DNA from: Cyanobium sp. FGCU52
GTDB lineage: Bacteria; Cyanobacteriota; Cyanobacteriia; PCC-6307; Cyanobiaceae
NCBI GenBank assembly: GCA_024958715.1
Contig: JANWUS010000029.1
Span: 1 to 64,000 of the forward strand
Direction of reading: 5' to 3'
DNA: 64,000 nt
The position numbers were made by a program, and so were the translations under genes. The notes beneath the pieces were generated by a model. That model had not been told where the DNA came from, did not search any database, and saw nothing but the letters and a program-made list of their open reading frames with translations. Each line of letters opens with the position of its first letter. Positions within the stretch are counted from its first letter, which is position 1. Shown one piece after another: positions 40,538 to 52,639 of the stretch.

Positions 40538-43500
40538 ATGCCCGATGGCAACGCCGGCGCCGGTGGCTGGCGCTTCTGGATCGACCGCGGTGGCACCTTC
40601 ACCGATCTGGTGGCCCGGTCGCCCGACGGCCGCACCGAGGTGCGCAAGGTGCTCTCCGAACAGCCGGAACAGCCCGGCGATCCGGCGATCCGGGCCCTGC
40701 GTCAGGTGCTGGGGCTGGCGCCGGAAGCCCCCCTCCCTCCGGGGCTGGTGCAGGAGGTGCGGCTGGGCACCACCGTGGCCACCAACGCCCTGCTGGAGCG
40801 GCGGGTGGCGCCGGTGCTGCTGCTGGTGAACCGCGGCCTGGCGGATCTGCCCCGCATCGGCGACCAGCACCGCCCCGATCTGTTCGCCCTGGAGATCGTG
40901 CGGCCCCGGCCCCTCGAGATGCGGGTGGTGGAGATCACGGGCCGGCGGGCCGCCGATGGGCGCACGCTGGAGCCCCTGCAGCTCGATCAGGCTCTGGAGG
41001 AGCGGATCCGCCAGGCCTGGAACGACGGCTACCGCAGCATCGCCGTGGCCCTGATGCACGCCTACCGCCATCCGCAGGAGGAGATCGCGCTGGCGAGCTG
41101 GCTGGAGCAGCGCGGCTTCGGCCCCGTGCACCTGTCGCACCGGGTGAGCCGGCGGGCCCGGCTGGTGCCGCGGCTGGCCACCACCGTGGTGGAGGCGGCC
41201 CTGGCCCCGGTGCTCGGCGCCTACCTCGATCGGGTGCGCGCCGATCTGGGCGCCGGCACCCGCCTGCGGGTGATGACCTCCAGCGGCGCCCTGTGCGCGC
41301 CGTCGCTGCTGCGGGCCAAGGACACGATCCTCTCCGGGCCGGCCGGCGGCATGGTGGGCGCGGCGGCGGCGGCCCGGGCCGCCGGCTTCGGCGACCGCCC
41401 GCTTCTGGGCTTCGACATGGGCGGCACCTCCACCGATGTGTTCCACCTCGAGCCCGGCGCCGGGGCGGACGGCTTCGAGCACCGCAGCGAGACGGAGATC
41501 GATGGCCTGCGCCTGCAGGCGGCGATGCTGCCGATCCACACCGTGGCCGCCGGCGGCGGATCGGAGCTGCACGTGGAGGGCGGGCGGCTGCAGGTGGGCC
41601 CCCGCTCCGCCGGCGCCGATCCCGGCCCCGCCTGCTATCGCCGCGGCGGGCCGGCCACGATCACCGACGCCAACGTGCTGCTGGGCCGCCTGCCGATCGA
41701 GGCCCTGCCGGCGGTGTTCGGCCCCAGCGGCGACCGGCCGGCCGATGGGGAGGCAGTGCGACAGCGCTTCGAGGAGCTCGCCGGGCTGCTGGCGGCACCG
41801 GGGGAGGCGCCGCCCAGCCCGGAGGCGGTGGCGAGGGGAGCCCTGACGATCGCGATCGAACGGATGGCCGAGGCGATCCGGCGCATCTCGATCCAGCGGG
41901 GCCACGACATCCGCGGGGCGGTGCTGGTGTGCTTCGGGGGCGCCGGCGGCCAGCACGCCTGCGCCCTGGCCGAGATCCTCGGCCTCTCCCAGGTGCTGCT
42001 CCATCCCCTGGCCGGGGTGCTCTCGGCCTGGGGCATCGGCCGGGCGCAGCAGAGCCTGCTGCGGGAGCGGGCCGTGCGCCGACCGCTCAGCCCGGAGGTG
42101 CTCGCCGAGGGTCGGCAGCTGCGGCAGGAGCTGGTGGCGGAGGCCAGCGGCGATCTGCGCGCCGCAGGCGATCTGGCAACTGCGGCCGCCCCACGGGTGC
42201 GGGAGCGGCTGGAACTGCGCTACGCCGCCAGCGATCAGGGGCTGGAGGTGCCGGGGCCCGGAGCCTCCGACTCGGCCGCTGCTCTGGCGGAGCTGCGCAC
42301 CGCCTTCGAGACCCTGCACCGGCGCCGCTTCGGTTATGTGGTGGAAGGCGAGCCGCTGGTGCTGGAGCGGATCGTGGTGGAGGTGGAGGCCGCCGATCCC
42401 CCGGGCGGCGGTGGCGGCCCCGCAGCGGGCGGGGCATGGGGGGATGGGGGCAGCACGAGCGGTGGCGAGCCCCCCCGGGTCTCCCTGGGCCTGCGGCAGG
42501 GGAGCGGGGTGGAGCTGGCTCAGGTGCCCTGCTGGCGCCGGGAGGCCCTGCCGTTGGACACGCCGCTCCAGGGCCCGGCCCTGATCGTGGAGACCACCGG
42601 CACCACGGTGCTGGAGCCCCACTGGCAGGCCCGCCGGCTGGCGGGGGGCGAGCTGCTGCTGGAGCACCAGCCGGACCGCGCCCTGATCCAGCCTCCGGCG
42701 GCCGAAACGCCGTGCTCCCCCGCCGGGGAAGGGCCGGTGGATCCGATGCGGCTCGAGCTGTTCCACCATCGCTTCGCCGCCGTTGCCGAGCAGATGGGCG
42801 TACGGCTGCAGCAGAGCGCCCGTTCGGTGAACATCCGCGAGCGGCTCGACTTCTCCTGCGCCCTGTTCGACGGCCAGGGCGCCCTGGTGGCCAACGCCCC
42901 CCACATTCCCGTGCACCTCGGCTCGATGGGCGAGAGCGTCGTCTCCCTGCTGGCGGCGATCCGCCGCGGCGAACGCCGGCCCCTCGCGCCCGGCGATGCC
43001 ATCGCCAGCAACGACCCCTACGGCGGCGGCACCCACCTGCCCGACATCACCGTGATCACGCCGGTGTTTGCGCCGGAGGCCGATGCGGGCGCGGCGCCGG
43101 CGTTCTACGTGGCCTGCCGCGGCCACCATGCCGATGTGGGGGGCATCAGCCCCGGCTCGATGCCTCCGTTCAGCCGCACGGTCGAGGAGGAGGGCCTGCG
43201 GCTGGCCAACGTTCCCCTGCTCGTGGGGGGCCGCTTCGATGAAGGGGCCTGGCGGGCGCGGCTGGCCGCCGGCCCGCACCCGGTGCGCAACCCCGACCAG
43301 CTGCTTGCCGACCTCCAGGCCCAGGTGGCCGCCAACCGGCTGGGGGTGGAGGAGCTGCAGCGCTGGATCGCGCGGGAAGGGGAGGCCGAGGTGCGCACCT
43401 GGATGGGGCATGTGCAGGCCAATGCGGCCGAGGCGGTGCGGGAGGTGATCGATGGCCTGCGCGACGGCGACCACTGCGTGGAGCTCGACGACGGCTGCCG

Positions 43501-44299
43501 GATCGTGGTGAGCGTGCGCATCGACCGGGAGGCCCGGCGGGCGCGGGTGGATTTCAGCGGCACCTCCCCCCAGCAGAGCGGCAACCTGAACGCGCCGCTG
43601 GCGATCACCAAGGCGGTGGTGCTCTACGTCTTCCGCTGCCTGGTGGGCCGGCCGATCCCCCTGAACGCCGGCTGCTTCGAGCCGATCGATCTGGTCGTGC
43701 CGCGGGGCTGCCTGCTGCGGCCGGAACCGCCGGCGGCGGTGGTGGCCGGCAATGTGGAAACGTCCCAGGCGGTGGCCAATGCCCTCTTCGGCGCCCTGGG
43801 GGTGATGGCCGCGGCCCAGGGCACGATGAACAACCTCAGCTTCGGCGACGACACACGCCAGTACTACGAGACGATCTGCGGCGGCACCGGGGCCGGCCCC
43901 ACCTTCGCGGGCGCCGACGCGGTGCAGAGCCACATGACCAACTCCCGCCTCACCGATCCGGAGATCCTGGAGGACCGGTTTCCGGTGGTGCTCGAGCGCT
44001 TCGCCCTGCGGCGCGGCAGCGGCGGCCGGGGCCACCACAAGGGCGGCGACGGCGTGGAGCGCTGGCTGCGCTTCGAGGCACCCCTGTCGGTGTCGCTGCT
44101 CACGGGTTCGCGGCGGGTGCCCCCCTTCGGTCAGGCCGGCGGCGAGAGCGGACACCCCGGCGAGAACCGGCTCGTGCGCGCCGACGGCAGCGAAGTGCCG
44201 CTGCCGGGCTGCGCCGCCCTGGAGGTGGAACCGGGTGATCGGCTGCGGATCGCCACCCCCGGCGGCGGCGGCTACGGCACCCCGGAGCCCGCGCGATGA
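40538..44299 (+). CDS. 5-oxoprolinase, fused HyuA-HyuB form
   Basis: A 1253-residue ATP-dependent 5-oxoprolinase that converts 5-oxoproline to glutamate. The first 690 or so residues are the HyuA part: WIDRGGTFTDLVARSPDG, GTTVATNALLERR, and the ATPase-like FDMGGTSTDVF with AAGGGSELHVEGG. The HyuB part follows: RLELFHHRFAAVAEQMGVRL, SNDPYGGGTHLPDITVITPV and GGGGYGTPE at the end. The fused form is that of eukaryotic OPLAH and some bacteria. It overlaps the gamma-glutamyltransferase start by four bases, so both act in one salvage path. Confidence 0.92.
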   Translation: MPDGNAGAGGWRFWIDRGGTFTDLVARSPDGRTEVRKVLSEQPEQPGDPAIRALRQVLGLAPEAPLPPGLVQEVRLGTTVATNALLERRVAPVLLLVNRGLADLPRIGDQHRPDLFALEIVRPRPLEMRVVEITGRRAADGRTLEPLQLDQALEERIRQAWNDGYRSIAVALMHAYRHPQEEIALASWLEQRGFGPVHLSHRVSRRARLVPRLATTVVEAALAPVLGAYLDRVRADLGAGTRLRVMTSSGALCAPSLLRAKDTILSGPAGGMVGAAAAARAAGFGDRPLLGFDMGGTSTDVFHLEPGAGADGFEHRSETEIDGLRLQAAMLPIHTVAAGGGSELHVEGGRLQVGPRSAGADPGPACYRRGGPATITDANVLLGRLPIEALPAVFGPSGDRPADGEAVRQRFEELAGLLAAPGEAPPSPEAVARGALTIAIERMAEAIRRISIQRGHDIRGAVLVCFGGAGGQHACALAEILGLSQVLLHPLAGVLSAWGIGRAQQSLLRERAVRRPLSPEVLAEGRQLRQELVAEASGDLRAAGDLATAAAPRVRERLELRYAASDQGLEVPGPGASDSAAALAELRTAFETLHRRRFGYVVEGEPLVLERIVVEVEAADPPGGGGGPAAGGAWGDGGSTSGGEPPRVSLGLRQGSGVELAQVPCWRREALPLDTPLQGPALIVETTGTTVLEPHWQARRLAGGELLLEHQPDRALIQPPAAETPCSPAGEGPVDPMRLELFHHRFAAVAEQMGVRLQQSARSVNIRERLDFSCALFDGQGALVANAPHIPVHLGSMGESVVSLLAAIRRGERRPLAPGDAIASNDPYGGGTHLPDITVITPVFAPEADAGAAPAFYVACRGHHADVGGISPGSMPPFSRTVEEEGLRLANVPLLVGGRFDEGAWRARLAAGPHPVRNPDQLLADLQAQVAANRLGVEELQRWIAREGEAEVRTWMGHVQANAAEAVREVIDGLRDGDHCVELDDGCRIVVSVRIDREARRARVDFSGTSPQQSGNLNAPLAITKAVVLYVFRCLVGRPIPLNAGCFEPIDLVVPRGCLLRPEPPAAVVAGNVETSQAVANALFGALGVMAAAQGTMNNLSFGDDTRQYYETICGGTGAGPTFAGADAVQSHMTNSRLTDPEILEDRFPVVLERFALRRGSGGRGHHKGGDGVERWLRFEAPLSVSLLTGSRRVPPFGQAGGESGHPGENRLVRADGSEVPLPGCAALEVEPGDRLRIATPGGGGYGTPEPAR

Positions 44300-46170
44300 G
44301 GGCGCTGCGGCTGCTGCCGCTGCTGGCACTCCTGCCTGTGGCAGTCCTGCCCGCTTTGGCCGCGGCGGCGGACGCGGCCGACTTCGCCTCTCTGCTGCAG
44401 GAGCGCCCCGGGCGCTTCCGGCCGGTCCGCTCCACCGGCGGGATGGTGGCCGGCCAGGAGCCCCGGGCGGCAGCGGTGGGGGCGGCGATGCTCGCCGCCG
44501 GCGGCAATGCGGTCGATGCGGCGGTGGCCGCCTCCTTCGCCGAGGCGGTGACCCTGCCGGCGGCCGGCAATCTCGGCGGGGGCGGCTTCCTGCTGCTGTG
44601 GCTGCCGGGGCCGTCGCCGGCCCGCGGACGCGGCTGCCTGCCGAGCGGGCCCGGCGCAGCGGGCCCGGAACTGCCGATCGGCGGCGGCCAGGCCGTGGCG
44701 ATCGACTACCGCGAGAGCGCCCCGGCGGCGGCCACGGCGGATCAGTTCCTCCGGCCCGACGGCACGGTGGATCGCCAGCGGGCCACCCGCAGCCCGCTCA
44801 GCGCGGGCGTGCCCGGCAGCGTGGCCGGCCTGGTGCTGGCCCAGCGCTGCTACGGCCACCTGCCGCTGGCGCGGGTGATCGCCCCGGCCATCGCCCTGGC
44901 GGAGCAGGGGGTGACGGTGGACCCGTTCCTGGCCGAGTCGCTCGCCGATGCGGCCACGCTGCTGGCCGCCGATCCCGGGGCGCGGCGCACCTTCCTGCGG
45001 GCCGTGCCCGGCGGGTCGCCCCGCCCCCTGGCAGCCGGCGAGATCCTGCGCCAGCCGGAGCTTGCGGCCAGCCTGCGCCGCATCGCCCGCTCCGGCCACC
45101 AGGGGTTCTACGGCGGCCCCACCGCCGCCGCGCTCACGGCTCTGATGCGCGAGCGGGGAGGAAGGATCAGCGCCGCCGACCTGGCGGACTACCGCGCCCG
45201 GCTGGTGCGGCCGCTGCAGATCACGTTCCGGGGGCATCCGGTGCTCGCGCCCCCGCTGCCCGCCGGCGGCCTCAGCCTGCTGCAGCTGCTGAAGCTGGTG
45301 GAACCCTTCGGGCCCCTGCCCGGCGGCGCCAGCTCCGCCGCCGACCTGCACCCCCTGGCCGAGGCCATGGCCCTGGTGTTCCGCGACCGCAACGAACACC
45401 TCGGCGACCTGCCCCAGCCCGAGCCGGTCGTGCGCCGGCTGCTCGATCCCACCAGGCTTGCGGAACTGCGGCGCACGATCGATCCGCTCCGCCATCGCCC
45501 TTCGGCCGAACTGGCGGCCGGGCAGGGACGCCGCAGCGGCGGCACCAACACCACCCACCTCTCGGTGGTGGATCGCCACGGGGGCCTCGTGTCCAGCACC
45601 ACCAGCCTCAACCTGGCCTACGGCAACGGCATCAGCGTGCCCGGCGCCGGCTTCCTGCTGAACAACACCATGGACGACTTCAGCGCCGCGCCGGGCACGG
45701 CCAACGCCTTCGGCCTGATTCAGGGGGAAGCCAACGCCATCGCCCCTGGCCGCCGGCCCCTGAGCTCGATGAGCCCCACCCTGGTGTTCCGGCCCGATGG
45801 CACCCCCTGGCTGGCCACCGGCAGCCCGGGGGGCAGCCGCATCCTCACGATCGTGACCCAGGTGCTGCGCAACCGGCTGGTGCACGGCATGAACCTGGCG
45901 GGGGCGGTGGCGTCGCCCCGCATTCATAGCCAGCTCTGGCCCGACCGGCTGGAGCTCGAGGACGGCATCTCGCCCGACACCGCCGACCTGCTGCAGAAGC
46001 GTGGACATCGAATCAAGGCGGCCAACGCCATGGGAGCCGCCCACAGCGTGGAGTGGCTGGGGAAGGGACGGGGCAGCCTGGGCATGGCGGACCCTCGCCG
46101 GTCCAGCGGCCTCGCCCAGCCGGAGCCCGCTGGCCTCAGGCTGCGGTCTGGGGCTCCGAACCCGCCGTGA
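44296..46170 (+). CDS. ggt: Gamma-glutamyltransferase
   Basis: Cleaves gamma-glutamyl bonds, mainly of glutathione, outside the membrane. The 624-residue precursor has a signal peptide (LLPLLALLPVAVLPALA), the large-subunit start GMVAGQEPRAAAVGAAMLAAGG, NAVDAAVAA and GNLGGGGFLLL, and the autocatalytic cleavage site before the second Thr of GGTNTTHLSVVD, making that Thr the nucleophile of the small subunit. The pieces STTSLNLAYGNG and SPGGSRILTIVTQV complete the site. The overlap with 5-oxoprolinase links glutathione breakdown and 5-oxoproline recycling. Its last 35 bases overlap the convergent gene. Confidence 0.93.
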   Translation: MRALRLLPLLALLPVAVLPALAAAADAADFASLLQERPGRFRPVRSTGGMVAGQEPRAAAVGAAMLAAGGNAVDAAVAASFAEAVTLPAAGNLGGGGFLLLWLPGPSPARGRGCLPSGPGAAGPELPIGGGQAVAIDYRESAPAAATADQFLRPDGTVDRQRATRSPLSAGVPGSVAGLVLAQRCYGHLPLARVIAPAIALAEQGVTVDPFLAESLADAATLLAADPGARRTFLRAVPGGSPRPLAAGEILRQPELAASLRRIARSGHQGFYGGPTAAALTALMRERGGRISAADLADYRARLVRPLQITFRGHPVLAPPLPAGGLSLLQLLKLVEPFGPLPGGASSAADLHPLAEAMALVFRDRNEHLGDLPQPEPVVRRLLDPTRLAELRRTIDPLRHRPSAELAAGQGRRSGGTNTTHLSVVDRHGGLVSSTTSLNLAYGNGISVPGAGFLLNNTMDDFSAAPGTANAFGLIQGEANAIAPGRRPLSSMSPTLVFRPDGTPWLATGSPGGSRILTIVTQVLRNRLVHGMNLAGAVASPRIHSQLWPDRLELEDGISPDTADLLQKRGHRIKAANAMGAAHSVEWLGKGRGSLGMADPRRSSGLAQPEPAGLRLRSGAPNPP

Positions 46171-46657
46171 ACAGGTTGATCGCCGACATCACCATGCCGG
46201 CCGCCAGCAGGGTGCCGATCACCCAGGCCGAATCGCCGGGCCAGCCGGCGATCAGCAGCCCACCCAGCACGGCCGTCACGATGCCGTCGAGCAGCACCAG
46301 GGTGCGGGCGGGGATGGGGCGGGCAGCGGCCGCCGCCAGTTCGGTGACGCCCTCGAAGGCCACAAGGAAGCCGATGAACAGGGTCAGGCTGATGGTGCTC
46401 TGCACCGGGAACACGATCAGCGAGAGGCCGCCGAGCAGGTAGAGCACGCCGGAGAGCCCTCGCAGCACCTTGCCGCTGGTGTCGTCACTGCCGCCGAGGC
46501 GGATCAGCTGGGCCACGCCGGCGGCGATCGCCACACCGCCCAGGGCGATGGTGAACAGGGTGGCCGACACGAAGGGCAGCAGCAGCGACAGCACCGCCCC
46601 GGTCAGGAGCAGGGCGATGGTGAGCCAGCGGAGGGTGGGCGAGGCCGGGGCGGTCAC
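46136..46657 (-). CDS. HdeD-type (DUF308) membrane protein
   Basis: A 173-residue integral membrane protein with six hydrophobic segments, each pair separated by short turns: TIALLLTGAVLSLLLPFVSA, LFTIALGGVAIAAGVAQLIRL, GLSGVLYLLGGLSLIVFP and later LLDGIVTAVLGGLLIAGWP. This is the HdeD/DUF308 pattern, known in E. coli for acid resistance but unclear in cyanobacteria. Its 3' end overlaps ggt by 35 bases, in the opposite direction. Confidence 0.85.
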   Translation of the reverse strand: MTAPASPTLRWLTIALLLTGAVLSLLLPFVSATLFTIALGGVAIAAGVAQLIRLGGSDDTSGKVLRGLSGVLYLLGGLSLIVFPVQSTISLTLFIGFLVAFEGVTELAAAAARPIPARTLVLLDGIVTAVLGGLLIAGWPGDSAWVIGTLLAAGMVMSAINLFTAGSEPQTAA

Positions 46658-46800: not shown

Positions 46801-47298
46801 ATGCTCGACCTGCTGCCGCCGCTCAACGAGCACAACCTGCCCTGGATGGACACGATCCATCCGATCCTGGTGCACTTCGTGATCGCCATGGCGCTGATCG
46901 CGGTGGCCTTCGATCTGATCGGCGTCCTGGCCAAACGGCCCAACCTGTTCGAAGTGAGCTTCTGGAACCTGCTGGTGGCCACTGCGGCGATCTTTCTGGC
47001 GATCATCTTCGGCCAGGTGGAGGCCGGCCTGGCCCAGCCCTACGGCGGCGCCAGCAACGTGCTCAACCTGCACAGCACCCTCGGCTGGTCGCTGGCGGGC
47101 GTGCTGGGGGTGCTCACCGGCTGGCGCTACGTGATCCGCAGCCGCGATCCCTCGGTGCTGCCCCTCCCCTTCCTGGCGGCCGGCGGCGTTCTGTGCCTGC
47201 TGGTGGCGCTGCAGGTGAACCTGGGCAATCAGCTGATCTGGATCTACGGCCTGCACACCGTCCCGGTGGTGCAGGCGGTGCGGGAGGGACTGGTGTGA
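46801..47298 (+). CDS. DUF2231 membrane protein, first copy
   Basis: A 165-residue protein with four hydrophobic segments. The signature IHPILVHFVIAMALIAVAFD at the N-terminus (HP...HF before helix one) and NLHSTLGWSLAGVLGVLTGW define the DUF2231 family. The conserved His residues could bind a haem or metal. It heads the oxidase operon and overlaps the next gene by four bases (GTGA). DUF2231 genes are known neighbours of cyanobacterial alternative oxidases, so a role in assembly or electron entry is likely but unproven. Confidence 0.82.
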   Translation: MLDLLPPLNEHNLPWMDTIHPILVHFVIAMALIAVAFDLIGVLAKRPNLFEVSFWNLLVATAAIFLAIIFGQVEAGLAQPYGGASNVLNLHSTLGWSLAGVLGVLTGWRYVIRSRDPSVLPLPFLAAGGVLCLLVALQVNLGNQLIWIYGLHTVPVVQAVREGLV

Positions 47299-47873
47299 GC
47301 GCCCTCGCCGCCAACGGCCTGCCCTATGCGCAGCCGATCCATCCCAACCTGGTTCACTTCACGATCGGGCTGTTCGTGATCGCCATCGCCTTCGACGTTG
47401 CCGGCGCGCTCTATCCGCTGGAGAAGCGGGTGTTCCGCTTCCTGGCCCTGCCCGTCACCCGCGCCGGATTCCATGACGTGGGCTGGTACAACCTGCTGGC
47501 CTGCGCCGGCATCACCTTCCTCACGGTGGCCGCAGGCCTCTACGAGATGCTGCTTGCCAACCCCCTGAGCGGGGTCACCGGTGGCCTCGGGCTCGGCGCG
47601 ATGGACACCATGCTCTGGCACGGCGTGGGCGGGGTGCTGCTGCTGCTGGTGATCGTGGCCATGACGGTGTGGCGCGGCTTCCAGCGCTTCCGCTGGCGCG
47701 CCGAGATGGGCCGCCAGGTGCAGTGGAGCTACCTGCTGGTAGGCCTGGCCCTGTTCGCCGTGTTCGCCCTGCACGGCACCCTCGGCGCCGAACTGGGAGC
47801 CGAGTTCGGGGTGCACGTCACCGCGGACCAGCTGCTGGCCAGGGGTGTCGATCTGCGCGAGGCCCTGCCATGA
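47295..47873 (+). CDS. DUF2231 membrane protein, second copy
   Basis: A 192-residue paralogue of the gene before it: IHPNLVHFTIGLFVIAIAFD repeats the same signature, followed by VGWYNLLACAGITFLTVAAG, LWHGVGGVLLLLVIVAM and QWSYLLVGLALFAVFALHGTLG. The GTG start overlaps the upstream stop by four bases, and its stop overlaps ctaC by four. Two different copies suggest a heterodimer. Confidence 0.82.
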   Translation: MSALAANGLPYAQPIHPNLVHFTIGLFVIAIAFDVAGALYPLEKRVFRFLALPVTRAGFHDVGWYNLLACAGITFLTVAAGLYEMLLANPLSGVTGGLGLGAMDTMLWHGVGGVLLLLVIVAMTVWRGFQRFRWRAEMGRQVQWSYLLVGLALFAVFALHGTLGAELGAEFGVHVTADQLLARGVDLREALP

Positions 47874-48814
47874 CCGGCGAAGCCCCCTCCCGTCCTTTCC
47901 GGCCCGATCCCGCCGCGATCGTGCTGGTGGCGATCGCGGTGGCGCTCAACGTGCTGGCGAGCGTGTGGATGAGCCAGCGGGTGCACGACTGGCTGCCCGT
48001 TCAGGCCTCCAGCGCCGCCCCTTACGTCGACAACCTGTTCGCCCTTGAGGCCGGCATCGGCACCTTCATCTTCCTGGGCTGCGCGTGTGTGATGGGGTGG
48101 ACGATCCTGTTCAACCGCGCCCCCAAGTACGACATGGACGATGGGGCGCCGATCGAGGGCAACCTGCGGCTCGAGATCGTCTGGACCCTGGTGCCGCTGG
48201 TGATCGTGATGGCGATCGCCGTCCATGCGATCCAGGTGAACCAGGTGCTGGCCACCCTGGACGGCAAGGTGCGCGTCAGCAGCGGCAGCGAGGCCCTGGC
48301 GGTGGCCGGGTCCGCCGCCGGCGAGGAGCCGGTGGGACCGATCCAGGTGATCGGCCGCCAGTGGTCGTGGGAGTTCATCTACCCCGAGGGGGTGCACAGC
48401 ACCGAGCTGCACCTGCCTGTGGATCGCCGCGCCCGCCTGGAGCTGATCTCGATGGACGTGCTGCACGGCTTCTACGTGCCGGCCTTCCGGCTCAAGCAGG
48501 ACCTGGTGCCCGGCAGTGTGATCGCCTACGCCCTCACCCCCACCCGCGAAGGCCGCTACCGGCTGCGGGATTCGATGTTCAGCGGCGGCTACTTCGCCGC
48601 CAACCAGACCGACGTGGTGGTGGAAAGCGACGACGCCTACCGCGCCTGGCTCAAGGACGCCCTGCGCCGCCCCCTTGTGCCGGCCGCCAATCCCGCCACC
48701 GAACTCTGGCGCCTCCGCCGGGAGCGGGGCGACCGCGGCTGGGCCACCGTGCCGCCCGCCCCGCCGCCGCTGGTGCACGTCGACGCCGATCCCAACGCCC
48801 CCCACGACGCCTGA
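47870..48814 (+). CDS. ctaCII: Alternative oxidase subunit II without CuA site
   Basis: Subunit II of a haem-copper oxidase, 314 residues: two membrane helices (AAIVLVAIAVALNVLASVW, GIGTFIFLGCACVMGW) and the periplasmic cupredoxin domain (VIGRQWSWEFIYPEG, SMDVLHGFYVPAFRLKQD). In cytochrome c oxidases the CuA loop has CxxxC with Glu, His and Met near the end; here this loop reads YRLRDSMFSGGYFAANQTDV, so both Cys ligands and the His are gone. This is the hallmark of quinol-type alternative respiratory terminal oxidases (ARTO) of cyanobacteria. A Pro/Asp-rich tail of about 60 residues follows. Confidence 0.9.
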   Translation: MTGEAPSRPFRPDPAAIVLVAIAVALNVLASVWMSQRVHDWLPVQASSAAPYVDNLFALEAGIGTFIFLGCACVMGWTILFNRAPKYDMDDGAPIEGNLRLEIVWTLVPLVIVMAIAVHAIQVNQVLATLDGKVRVSSGSEALAVAGSAAGEEPVGPIQVIGRQWSWEFIYPEGVHSTELHLPVDRRARLELISMDVLHGFYVPAFRLKQDLVPGSVIAYALTPTREGRYRLRDSMFSGGYFAANQTDVVVESDDAYRAWLKDALRRPLVPAANPATELWRLRRERGDRGWATVPPAPPPLVHVDADPNAPHDA

Positions 48815-48826
48815 GCCGCCCCGCCG

Positions 48827-50521
48827 ATGTCCCCCACCATTCCCTTCGATCCACGCGTGCTGCGGGCTCCCCATCCGGTCCCCGGAGCCCCTGACAACTG
48901 GCGACGCTTCTTCTCCTTCAACACCGACGCCAAGGTGATCGGCATCCAGTACATCGCCGTGTCGCTGTTCTTCCTGCTGGTGGGCGGCCTGCTGGCGATG
49001 ATCATGCGGGGCGAACTGCTCACCCCACCGGCGGATCTGGTGGATCCCACCGTGTACAACGGCCTCTACACGATGCATGGAACGGTGATGCTGTTCCTGT
49101 TTCTGTTCCCGGTGCTCAACGGCTTCAACAATCTGTTGATCCCGCCGATGATCGGCGCCCCCGATATGGCCTTTCCGCGGCTGAACGCCGCGGCCTTCTG
49201 GCTGTTCCCCGTCTTCGGCGTGATCCTGATGCTGAGCTTCCTGGTGCCGGGGGGACCCTCAGGATCGGGCTGGTGGGCCTATCCGCCGGTGAGCACCCAG
49301 AACCCCCTGGGCCATTTCATCAACGGCCAGTTCCTCTGGATCCTGGCGGTGGCGCTCTCGGGGGTGAGTTCGATCATGGGAGCGGTGAACTTCTGCACCA
49401 CGATCATCCGCATGCGCGCCCCCGGCATGGGCTGGTTCCGCATGCCGATCTTCTGCTGGACCGCCCTGGCCGCCCAGGCGATCCAGCTCTGCGGCCTGCC
49501 GGTGCTCACCGCCGGGGCGGTGATGCTGCTGTTCGACCTGAGCTTCGGCACCAGCTTCTTCCGGCCGGAGGGTGGCGGCGATCCGATGCTCTATCAGCAC
49601 TTCTTCTGGTTCTATTCGCACCCGGCGGTGTATGTGATGGTGCTGCCGATCTTCGGGGTGTTCTCCGAGGTGTTTCCCGTCTACGCCCGCAAACCCCTGT
49701 TCGGCTACCACGTGGTGGCGATCGCCTCGTTCGCGATCACCTTCCTCAGTCTGATCGTCTGGGTGCACCACATGTTCTACAGCGGCACCCCCCAGTGGAT
49801 GCGCAACGTGTTCATGGTCACCACGATGCTGATCGCCGTGCCCACCGGCATCAAGGTGTTCGCCTGGCTCGGCACCCTCTGGCGGGGCAAGCTGAGGCTC
49901 ACCACGCCGATGCTGTTCTGCCTGGGCGGGCTGTTCAACTTCATCTTCGCCGGCATCACCGGCATCATGCTGGCCACCGTGCCCGTGGACATCCATGTGG
50001 GCAACACCTACTTCGTGGTAGGCCACTTCCACACCGTGATCTTCTCCACCATCACCTACGGCGTGTTCGCCGCCATCTACCACTGGTTCCCCAAGTTCAC
50101 CGGCCGCATGACCTACGAGGGCCTGGGCCAGCTGCACTTCGTGCTCACCTTCCTCGGCAGCCAGCTCAACTTCCTGCCGATGCACTGGGCCGGGCTCATG
50201 GGCATGCCCCGCCGCGTCGCCTCCTACGACCCGGAGTTCGCCGGCGCCAACGTGCTCGCCAGCCTCGGGGCCTTCCTGCTGGGGGTGGCCACCCTTCCCT
50301 TCCTGATCAACATCGTGAGCTCCTGGGCGCGGGGGGCCAAGGCCCCGGCCAACCCCTGGCAGGCGATCGGCCTGGAGTGGCTGCTGCCCTCGCCGCCGCC
50401 GGCGGAGAACTTCGGCGAACACGTCCCCGTGGTGATCGCCGGCCCCTACGGCTACGGCCTGGGCCGCGATCTGGTCGAAGACCAGGAGAGCGTCGTGCAG
50501 CGCTCCCTGCAGGAGGCCTGA
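48827..50521 (+). CDS. ctaDII: Terminal oxidase subunit I
   Basis: Catalytic subunit of a haem-copper oxidase, 564 residues and about twelve helices. Haem and copper ligands are visible: His in TMHGTVMLFLFLFP (haem a), HPAVY (CuB His and the Tyr cross-link), HH in WVHHMFYSG (CuB) and the His pair in VVGHFHTVIF (high-spin and low-spin haem). The segment YSHPAVYVMVLP, with Tyr-Ser before HP and Ala instead of Glu (HPEVY), is the A2 type of proton channel. With subunit II lacking CuA, this points to a quinol oxidase. Confidence 0.93.
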   Translation: MSPTIPFDPRVLRAPHPVPGAPDNWRRFFSFNTDAKVIGIQYIAVSLFFLLVGGLLAMIMRGELLTPPADLVDPTVYNGLYTMHGTVMLFLFLFPVLNGFNNLLIPPMIGAPDMAFPRLNAAAFWLFPVFGVILMLSFLVPGGPSGSGWWAYPPVSTQNPLGHFINGQFLWILAVALSGVSSIMGAVNFCTTIIRMRAPGMGWFRMPIFCWTALAAQAIQLCGLPVLTAGAVMLLFDLSFGTSFFRPEGGGDPMLYQHFFWFYSHPAVYVMVLPIFGVFSEVFPVYARKPLFGYHVVAIASFAITFLSLIVWVHHMFYSGTPQWMRNVFMVTTMLIAVPTGIKVFAWLGTLWRGKLRLTTPMLFCLGGLFNFIFAGITGIMLATVPVDIHVGNTYFVVGHFHTVIFSTITYGVFAAIYHWFPKFTGRMTYEGLGQLHFVLTFLGSQLNFLPMHWAGLMGMPRRVASYDPEFAGANVLASLGAFLLGVATLPFLINIVSSWARGAKAPANPWQAIGLEWLLPSPPPAENFGEHVPVVIAGPYGYGLGRDLVEDQESVVQRSLQEA

Positions 50522-50525
50522 GCCG

Positions 50526-51125
50526 ATGACCACCCTGCCGGCCCCCCCAGCCGCGGACGCCGCCGCCAACGGCCAGCACGGCCACGGCGGCCACAACCTC
50601 ACCGGCTTCGTTCTCTTCCTCTGCTCGGAGAGCCTGATCTTCCTGGCGTTCTTCGCCGGCTACATCACGTTCAAGCTCTCCTCGCCGGTGTGGCTGCCGC
50701 CGGGGGTGGAGGGGCTGGAACTGCGCGGACCGCTGCTGTATTCGGTGGTGCTGGTGAGCAGCAGCCTGGTGATCGTGCTGGCGGAGCGAGCCCTGCACCA
50801 GCGCCGGCTCGTGGCCTTCCGCTGCTGGTGGGCGCTGACGATGCTGATGGGGGCGGTGTTCCTCTACGGCCAGGCCAGCGAATGGCTGCAGTTGCCCTTC
50901 GCCCTCGGCAGCGGCGTGTTCGGCGGCTGCTTCTACCTGCTCACCGGCTTCCACGGCCTGCACGTGCTCACCGGCATCGTGCTGATGGCGCTGATGCTGT
51001 GGCGTTCGTTCCGCCCCGGCAACTACGACGGCGGTGAAGCTGGGGTGGCGTCGGTGGCGCTGTTCTGGCACTTCGTGGATGTGATCTGGGTGGTGCTGTT
51101 CCTGCTGATCTACGTATGGCGATGA
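50526..51125 (+). CDS. ctaEII: Terminal oxidase subunit III
   Basis: A 199-residue, five-helix subunit III: LTGFVLFLCSESLIFLAFFAGYITF with the Glu of the family, LLTGFHGLHVLTGIVLMALML and FWHFVDVIWVVLFLLIYVW. It lacks the two first helices of mitochondrial subunit III, as usual for the short bacterial form. It begins four bases after ctaDII and its end overlaps the GMC gene by 4 to 10 bases. Confidence 0.94.
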   Translation: MTTLPAPPAADAAANGQHGHGGHNLTGFVLFLCSESLIFLAFFAGYITFKLSSPVWLPPGVEGLELRGPLLYSVVLVSSSLVIVLAERALHQRRLVAFRCWWALTMLMGAVFLYGQASEWLQLPFALGSGVFGGCFYLLTGFHGLHVLTGIVLMALMLWRSFRPGNYDGGEAGVASVALFWHFVDVIWVVLFLLIYVWR

Positions 51126-52639
51126 TCATCGACGAGCGCACCTACGACGTCGTTGTGATCGGCAGTGGTGCCGGCGGCGGCACCCTCGCCGGGGAACTGG
51201 CCGTGGCCGGGCGGTCGGTGCTGCTGCTGGAGCGGGGGGAGGGGATGCCCCTGGCCGACCAGAACGTGGCCGATGTGAATCTCTTCCGCCGCCGCCGCTA
51301 CCACCCGGAGGAACCCTGGTTCGGCACCGACGGCGATCCCTTCGCTCCCCAGACGGTGCATGCCTGGGGCGGCAACACCAAGATCTGGGGCGGCGTGCTG
51401 CAGCGCATGCGCGAACGGGAGTTCGGCGGCCTCGAGCACCAGGAGGGCAGGGCGCCTGCCTGGCCCTTCGGCTACGACGAACTCGCCCCCTGGTACGACC
51501 GGGCCGAAGCCCTCTACCGGGTGCACGGTGAGGCGGGCCTCGATCCCAGCGAACCGCCCCGGTCGGCGGCCTACCCCCATCCGCCCCGGCCGATCGAGCC
51601 GTTCCTGCAGGCGCTGCGCGAGGGATTCGAGCGCCAGGCCCTCCATCCCTACGCCCTGCCCCTGAGCTGGTCGCCGTCGCAGGAGGATCCCACCGGTGAC
51701 GCCGAGCAGTTCGGGGTGGAGCGCGGCGACGGCGCCGCCGGCTTCGAGCGCCGCGGCGATACCCGGGTGCTGGCCCTGCACACCGACCCCTCCGGCCGGC
51801 GGGTGGTGGGGGTGGAGGCCAGCGTGGGCGGCCAGCGCTGGCTGTTCCGCGGCCAGCAGGTGGTGCTCGCCGCCGGGGCGATCCACACGCCCGCGATCCT
51901 GCTGCGCTCGGCCTCCGATCGCCACCCCCGCGGCCTGGCGAACGACTCCGACCTGGTGGGCCGCAACCTGATGAAGCTGCAGCTCACGGCGATCCTGCAG
52001 CGGGCCAGCCAGCCCAATTCGGGCCGCTACGGCCGCAGCCTCGGCTTCACCGACCACTACTGGGGCGATCGCAACGTGAGCTTCCCGCTCGGCTGCATCC
52101 AGAGCGGCGGTGGCGTGCTGCAGGACCCCCTGTTCGCCGAATCGCCGCCCCTGCTCTCGCTCGTCACCCGCCTGCTGAGCGATGGCGCCCTGGAATGGCT
52201 CGCCGACCGTTCGATCACCTGGTGGGCGATGAGTTCGGTGCTGCCCGAAGCCGACAACCGGGTGCAGCTGAAGGGGGAGCGGATCTCGGTGGCCTACCTG
52301 CCCAACAACCGCGAAGCCCACGACCGGCTGGTGTACCGCTGGCTCGACACGATGCAGCGCGTCGAGGACGATCCCCTCACCACCGTGGTACAGCGCACGC
52401 CGATCATTCCCCGCGGCGAGGCGCCCCAGAGCGTGGTGGGCTACGCCTGCGGCACCTGCCGCATGGGCAGCGATCCAGCCAGCTCGGTGGTGGACGGCGA
52501 GGGCCGCTGCCATGGCCTCGAGAACCTGTGGATCGCCGATGCCTCGGTGCTGCCAACGGCTCCCGCCGTGGGTTTCGGCCTCACCGTGATCGCCCTTGCC
52601 CTGCGCCAGGCCGCTCGCCTGAACACCGAACTGGGCTGA
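51116..52639 (+). CDS. GMC-family FAD-dependent oxidoreductase
   Basis: A 507-residue flavoprotein (505 if the ATG at 51122 is used; that one makes an ATGA overlap with ctaEII). The FAD motif is VVVIGSGAGGGTLAGELA with LLLERGEG, then AWGGNTKIWGGVLQRMRE, and the C-terminal GMC segment GTCRMGSDPASSVVDG and LWIADASVLPTAPAVGFG. In most GMC enzymes the last segment carries Asn-Pro (NPTLTI) with the catalytic Asn; here it is VGFGLTV, so that Asn is missing. It could oxidise an alcohol or sugar and hand electrons to quinone, but the substrate is unknown. No signal peptide is seen, so it is probably cytoplasmic. Confidence 0.85.
   Translation: MAMIIDERTYDVVVIGSGAGGGTLAGELAVAGRSVLLLERGEGMPLADQNVADVNLFRRRRYHPEEPWFGTDGDPFAPQTVHAWGGNTKIWGGVLQRMREREFGGLEHQEGRAPAWPFGYDELAPWYDRAEALYRVHGEAGLDPSEPPRSAAYPHPPRPIEPFLQALREGFERQALHPYALPLSWSPSQEDPTGDAEQFGVERGDGAAGFERRGDTRVLALHTDPSGRRVVGVEASVGGQRWLFRGQQVVLAAGAIHTPAILLRSASDRHPRGLANDSDLVGRNLMKLQLTAILQRASQPNSGRYGRSLGFTDHYWGDRNVSFPLGCIQSGGGVLQDPLFAESPPLLSLVTRLLSDGALEWLADRSITWWAMSSVLPEADNRVQLKGERISVAYLPNNREAHDRLVYRWLDTMQRVEDDPLTTVVQRTPIIPRGEAPQSVVGYACGTCRMGSDPASSVVDGEGRCHGLENLWIADASVLPTAPAVGFGLTVIALALRQAARLNTELG

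Follow-up and report, generated by a model that had tools for sequence, protein, structure and literature searches.

A GMC flavoprotein gene with altered catalytic residues in the predicted quinol-type oxidase operon of Cyanobium sp. FGCU52 and its linkage to the oxidase in other cyanobacteria

The closest described system is the type-1 alternative respiratory terminal oxidase (ARTO), or Qox, of Anabaena PCC 7120, which is encoded by alr2729-alr2730-coxB3-coxA3-coxC3 and has a subunit II without CuA, according to the accessible part of a review (PMC6616624). The same part calls it unclear whether the quinol-type oxidases of cyanobacteria have more than three subunits. In picocyanobacteria, the available text of a second paper reports a ctaC2-D2-E2 cluster for 85% of the reference genomes of Synechococcus and for Prochlorococcus from low-iron regions (PMC10119275). 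A comparable operon is analyzed here in Cyanobium sp. FGCU52, in a stretch of 64,000 nucleotides (contig JANWUS010000029.1, positions 1 to 64,000 of the forward strand; the window). Six plus-strand genes at 46801-52639 encode two DUF2231 proteins, oxidase subunits II, I and III (ctaCII, ctaDII and ctaEII) and a GMC oxidoreductase-type flavoprotein, GMC1. GMC1 is tightly linked to the oxidase, lacks catalytic residues of its family and is under purifying selection. We tentatively favor the reading that it is an accessory flavoprotein, dedicated to the oxidase and catalytically altered, rather than a conventional alcohol dehydrogenase.

The window resembles the Anabaena operon in having two genes ahead of three oxidase subunits and a subunit II without CuA. 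The Anabaena operon as named in the accessible text stops at coxC3, whereas the window adds a GMC gene overlapping that of subunit III. The picocyanobacterial cluster contains the same oxidase genes as the window, but the available main text never uses the terms GMC, choline or DUF2231, and the supplementary gene lists may include GMC1 (PMC10119275). As a linked, conserved sixth gene, GMC1 is a concrete candidate for an extra oxidase component in marine and freshwater picocyanobacteria. Among the matches listed from open-access text, whose supplements may differ, neither ARTO nor the cyanobacterial terminal oxidase was ever paired with a GMC oxidoreductase, and no such text was found linking GMC oxidoreductase, Synechococcus and terminal oxidase. 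Nothing joining DUF2231 with an oxidase in cyanobacteria was found there either, which does not establish absence from print.

The oxidase subunits support assignment to this class. CtaCII has no Cys in the region of the CuA motif (residues 228-250) in all 57 aligned sequences; D234 and S238 occupy what we take to be the two CuA Cys positions in every one, H199 remains, and a Met remains in 34 of the 57. In CtaDII, H84, H265, H314, H315, H400 and H402 are invariant among 55 aligned sequences and presumably serve the hemes and CuB. Because the CuA Cys residues are absent, the subunit I His residues are kept, and two genes lie upstream, the window oxidase fits the Anabaena type-1 ARTO, whose alr2729 and alr2730 products we take to be DUF2231 proteins. 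The locus is thus predicted to be a cyanobacterial ARTO operon, encoding a heme-copper oxidase of the quinol-oxidase type together with two DUF2231 proteins. The window has a DUF2231 pair immediately ahead of subunit II, as do nearly all of the fetched ctaII loci (no pair was found at L143 and L145), and plasmids from Nostoc and Trichormus also carry such a pair before these oxidase genes. The initial annotation's link to a quinol-type oxidase and its view of the DUF2231 genes as regular members of ARTO loci are therefore both supported.

Linkage of GMC1 to the oxidase

GMC1 and ctaEII occur together in almost every genome of the order that has either one. Among 299 genomes of the order, GMC1 is present in 128, ctaEII in 128, both in 127, and either in 129. 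The ortholog thresholds were set where the listed matches jump: from E 3e-121 to 7e-93 for GMC1, where a paralogue and split fragments start, and from 1e-55 to 1e-40 for ctaEII, where ctaEI starts. G298 and G295 depart from the pattern, each through a partial match in a genome of 86% completeness. With distances taken between the ends of tblastn hits, the spacing is -10 to +78 bp in 124 of the 126 pairs that share a contig. Inserts separate the genes in the remaining two (4.1 kb in G066, 2.4 kb in G093), and GMC1 of G113 is split by a contig break. The G093 locus has a thiamine-pyrophosphate enzyme gene between ctaEII and GMC1 (L114:7006-8895).

A second set consisted of the top-scoring 80 among 387 named loci, which overlaps the 299-genome set and samples nearest relatives only. 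It includes Synechococcus WH7803, RCC307 and WH 5701, and the closest named relative in it is Cyanobium sp. FGCU6 (95%). In this set, ctaEII adjoins GMC1 at all 79 loci with enough upstream DNA, and the full six-gene order is present at 68 of the 70 whose upstream DNA reaches far enough to show it. The initial annotation had considered the flavoprotein not a standard part of such loci; within the order it is instead a regular neighbor of the oxidase, and its position beside ctaEII is not peculiar to this strain.

The linkage extends beyond the order, although not to every oxidase. In a sample of 309 genomes of the phylum, a clear GMC1 (44-49% identity) was found in 20 genomes from 12 families outside the order, and G451 has a weaker GMC match. 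Nineteen of these 20 loci were fetched; the six-gene order lies on one contig in 18 and is split over two contigs in one. A ctaCII-like gene was counted in 60 genomes outside the order, besides 14 matches that resemble ctaCI. Of the ∼60 genomes with the gene, ∼40 have no clear GMC1, so GMC1 is not always required by the oxidase. Among other fetched loci, L138-L140, L146, L147, L150-L152 and L157 have no GMC1 within 4-6 kb after ctaE. The linkage of GMC1 and oxidase is broad, not universal. Chance packing is very unlikely because the gene order is conserved across the phylum, and order and linkage in other genomes rule out a strain-specific neighbor. The six genes form a conserved, probably co-transcribed module.

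A second quinol oxidase joins some of these clusters. The bd oxidase genes cydAB lie between ctaE and GMC1 at L127 (G523), one of the 18 single-contig loci above, and directly after GMC1 on two Nostocaceae plasmids (L255 and L257). These plasmids, from Nostoc edaphicum and Trichormus variabilis, carry the six genes followed by cydAB, with feoB within ∼8 kb. The iron genes bear on the suggestion that ARTO has a ferric-reductase function at the plasma membrane in which GMC1 takes part. The accessible text of one study reports ARTO as a possible ferric reductase (PMC7676907), and in that of another, ARTO genes mark Prochlorococcus from low-iron regions (PMC10119275). However, iron genes were seen beside the operon on two plasmids only, without a systematic search for them, no export signal was seen in GMC1 by eye, and many oxidase-bearing genomes outside the order have no clear GMC1. 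We regard this role as unlikely.

The closest relative (G150) has two ARTO loci on one contig (G150:C63 20000-48000; L170, L098), one of the window type and one decaying. The decaying locus has no ctaC or ctaD match and a stop in ctaE, followed by genes for a member of glycoside hydrolase family 63 (GH63) and the paralogue GMC2. The pairing suggests that an older ARTO locus was replaced in this lineage.

Fold, catalytic residues and possible roles of GMC1

GMC1 keeps the fold and cofactor motif of its family. PF00732 and PF05199 both match above cut-off, and the structure model has a mean predicted local distance difference test score (pLDDT) of 80.8 and a predicted template modeling score of 0.88. 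Profile and structure searches gave fructose dehydrogenase and the Burkholderia flavin adenine dinucleotide (FAD)-dependent glucose dehydrogenase as best matches. The glycine-rich FAD motif is kept, and all 28 sequences compared have G14, G16, G19 and E37 at the FAD site. Assignments to choline dehydrogenase or pyranose oxidase fell far below NCBIfam cut-offs, and the mycofactocin dehydrogenase MftG scored 73.3 bits against a curated cut-off of 387.45.

The catalytic residues tell another story. Alignment to fructose dehydrogenase places N1146, H1147 and N1190, the positions mutated in the solved variants N1146A, H1147A and N1190A and, we assume, catalytic, at G440, Y441 and G484 of the window protein. 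GMC1 therefore resembles the large subunits of the Gluconobacter fructose dehydrogenase and the Burkholderia FAD-glucose dehydrogenase in fold and FAD site and differs from them at all three residues. It also differs in its lack of a small subunit: a model that matched in 2 of 14 controls detected PF13618, presumably the partner of this enzyme class, in none of 11 genomes, the window's own included.

Residues were surveyed in 94 non-redundant GMC proteins (143 before duplicate removal), classed by best match rather than by catalytic residues; the survey excluded proteins with internal stops and matches that cover fewer than 400 residues of the query. All 72 GMC1 proteins scored lack the catalytic Asn and have Gly, Ser or Pro instead, and a further, decayed copy from G150 has a gap there. 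The catalytic His is absent in 65 of 73; across the 73 the position holds Y, F, L, N, G, Q, S or H. The GMC2 paralogue keeps the His in 21 of 21 and the Asn in 18 of 18, three proteins being cut off. GMC1 forms one side of a branch with a Shimodaira-Hasegawa-like approximate likelihood ratio test value of 100 in the group table of a quick tree with long branches flagged; a re-rooted version gave 93 at the GMC1 node without isolating GMC2. By parsimony, Asn loss needs one change and His loss three.

Despite these losses, GMC1 is maintained. The ratio of nonsynonymous to synonymous substitution rates (dN/dS) is 0.146, 0.054 and 0.072 in three pairs, and values of 0.05-0.15 indicate purifying selection; together with the open frame they rule out a pseudogene. 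A corresponding DUF2231a value, window versus G150, was not used, since the decayed second copy was picked up. GMC1 is a natural example of a GMC protein kept by purifying selection although its catalytic residues have been lost.

The reading of GMC1 as a dedicated, altered accessory flavoprotein draws on the co-occurrence (127 of 129 genomes), the close spacing, the six-gene order in other families, a presence that follows the oxidase better than p907 (a sugar gene described below), the residue loss, the one-sided branch, the dN/dS values, the fold matches and the cydAB genes joining three clusters. GMC1 is related to sugar-oxidizing GMC enzymes and has kept the fold and FAD motif, but it has lost the Asn/His pair that normally abstracts the proton of an alcohol. 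On this reading, it would work with the oxidase at the membrane, either transferring electrons at the quinol/oxidase site or helping to assemble or gate the oxidase. Gene order, tight linkage, residue loss, purifying selection and separation from GMC2 are observed, and we infer FAD occupancy, membrane association, an electron-transfer or assembly role and the sugar route discussed below. A broader proposal, possible but rather doubtful, is that ARTO in many cyanobacteria has a dedicated sixth component, a former sugar dehydrogenase that gave up its alcohol chemistry and turned into a redox subunit or gate of a quinol oxidase, perhaps acting with a His-rich, heme- or metal-binding DUF2231 pair. 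If true, this would be a new way of feeding or controlling a heme-copper oxidase.

Several observations pull in the other direction. The His is kept in 8 of 73 GMC1 proteins, so part of the catalytic pair survives in some lineages, and a missing canonical pair does not prove missing dehydrogenase activity. A search for fixed residue differences between GMC1 and GMC2 gave none at strict thresholds and one at relaxed thresholds. The oxidase-bearing genomes outside the order that have no clear GMC1 count here as well.

The translational overlap with ctaEII in the window, the near-perfect co-occurrence and the loss of the catalytic pair would also suit a pseudoenzyme that serves subunit III purely in structure or assembly, with no flavin or with flavin for folding only. 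The invariant FAD site suggests instead that flavin still matters, and GMC1 is absent from other ARTO lineages; we judge such a protein quite improbable.

Sugar genes near the oxidase

An ordinary alcohol or sugar dehydrogenase is unlikely, judging from the GMC1 residues. A modified version, to which we give somewhat limited weight, holds that GMC1 is still a substrate dehydrogenase using other active-site residues and delivers electrons from a specific alcohol, aldose or lipid to the oxidase by way of plastoquinone. The retained fold and FAD motif, the sugar dehydrogenases as nearest solved relatives and the His of a few GMC1 proteins are consistent with this, as is a GH63-like gene that directly follows GMC1 in 55 of the 128 order genomes, with GMC2 then following in most loci read. 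Against it stand the uniform loss of the Asn, a variability at the His position unlike that of an active-site residue, and the missing small subunit.

The GH63/MGH1-like hydrolase (p907, ∼900 residues) has matches in 84 of the 299 order genomes. Six of these were excluded because their sole matches are 43-50% paralogues, leaving 78 genomes with an ortholog (at least 59% identity), all 78 of which have GMC1. The p907 gene directly follows GMC1 in 55; in 17 it is on the same strand, starting 12-22 kb before the GMC1 end, in 4 it is on another contig, and in 2 it is farther away or downstream. In the named set, it follows GMC1 at 49 of 68 loci, and GMC2 comes after p907 in most loci read with p907 beside the oxidase. 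At L107:8159-13799, the GH63-like gene has a GTG start overlapping the GMC1 stop by 4 bp and is followed by an intact GMC2 and an HlyD-like gene. In the phylum sample, p907 relatives occur in 58 of 309 genomes, many of them away from the oxidase. No phmmer match to p907 was found among solved structures. The window's genome has no p907 match, and a GMC2 query found only GMC1 itself and weak partial matches there. GMC1 tracks the oxidase rather than the sugar genes, because 127 of 129 genomes pair it with ctaEII versus 78 of 128 with p907.

Genes for a gluconolactonase (SGL), a glucose-1-dehydrogenase-like short-chain dehydrogenase/reductase (SDR), DoxX, VOC and NDH-2-like proteins recur near the oxidase in unrelated families. 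Loci L141-L143 were picked because a GMC gene lay nearby, and no frequency is claimed from this neighbor set. The GMC2 sets, with a GH63 or GH15 glucosidase, SDR, VOC, gluconolactonase and DoxX, have a homologous GMC fold and lie beside the same oxidase in many loci read. They differ from GMC1 in keeping the catalytic pair and in occurring also without the oxidase in stretches read: GMC with VOC, SDR and glucosidase on Azospirillum plasmid p3, and GMC with SGL, DoxX, SDR, VOC and GH15 on plasmids of Gloeothece and Nostoc C052.

The glucosidase, intact GMC2, gluconolactonase and NDH-2-like genes nearby suggest a carbohydrate-driven respiratory chain ending at ARTO. Where sugar oxidation couples to the oxidase, the quinone pool would be fed by intact GMC2 together with the glucosidase, the gluconolactonase and the SDR and NDH-2-like proteins. 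Such a route from sugar through quinone to oxidase is plausible where GMC2 and sugar genes lie near the oxidase. The initial annotation had an alcohol or sugar dehydrogenase feeding a quinol-type oxidase; the proposal is doubtful for GMC1 itself and retains plausibility elsewhere, through GMC2.

Operon layout and the DUF2231 proteins

The tight packing initially described for the six genes is borne out by coordinates and Pfam domains (Table 1): overlaps measure 4, 4 and 4-10 bp and gaps 12 and 4 bp, and every match (PF09990 twice, COX2, COX1, COX3, GMC N and C) is above cut-off. The range of the last overlap reflects two candidate GMC1 starts. ATG 51122 gives a 4-bp ATGA overlap with the ctaEII stop (51123-51125), and ATG 51116 a 10-bp overlap. 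The former is likelier because the motif M[IF][IFV][DI][DE], which begins there, lies near the N-terminus in 40 of 40 GMC1 proteins, preceded by 0-12 varied residues.

Table 1. Genes of the operon and replaced residues of GMC1 in the window
Feature	Position	Strand	Basis
DUF2231a membrane protein	46801..47298	+	PF09990, 1.5e-35
DUF2231b membrane protein	47295..47873	+	GTG start, overlaps DUF2231a by 4 bp; PF09990
ctaCII, oxidase subunit II	47870..48814	+	ATGA overlap with DUF2231b; COX2 Pfam match
ctaDII, oxidase subunit I	48827..50521	+	12-bp gap after ctaCII; COX1 Pfam match; YSHPAVY motif
ctaEII, oxidase subunit III	50526..51125	+	4-bp gap after ctaDII; COX3 Pfam match
GMC1 flavoprotein	51122..52639	+	Likely ATG 51122; alternative in-frame ATG 51116; GMC N/C domains
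Tyr441 replacing catalytic His	52442-52444	+	Fructose dehydrogenase alignment
Gly484 replacing catalytic Asn	52571-52573	+	Fructose dehydrogenase alignment

The operon is flanked by a divergent DUF308 gene (46136-46657) and, on the other side, a convergent MscS-type gene. Two weak tests address transcription signals in the region. The only terminator-like site in the region, where 2.2 are expected, lies inside ctaDII (49079-49097), with none intergenic, and a sigma-70-like promoter scan found none, with 0.4 expected.

Both DUF2231 proteins have conserved His residues. In 57 aligned sequences of each, His 20, 25 and 91 of DUF2231a are invariant and His 152 is present in 98%, and His 16, 21, 109 and 174 of DUF2231b are invariant. 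The DUF2231b model consists of four long helices (mean pLDDT 83.9). Assignment to a known fold was rejected: the model had no PDB match at E ≤ 0.001, and the best match of a DUF2231 profile search, to an oxidase subunit I, reached only E 0.19. Judged by the modeled helix order, the four His should lie on the same face of the membrane, which would be periplasmic according to the charges of the loops opposite. That these residues, at helix ends on the same membrane side, form a heme or metal site is only a guess.

Elsewhere in the window, two large genes at 40538-46170 overlap by 4 bp and by eye resemble 5-oxoprolinase and gamma-glutamyltransferase, a possible glutathione-cycle pair.

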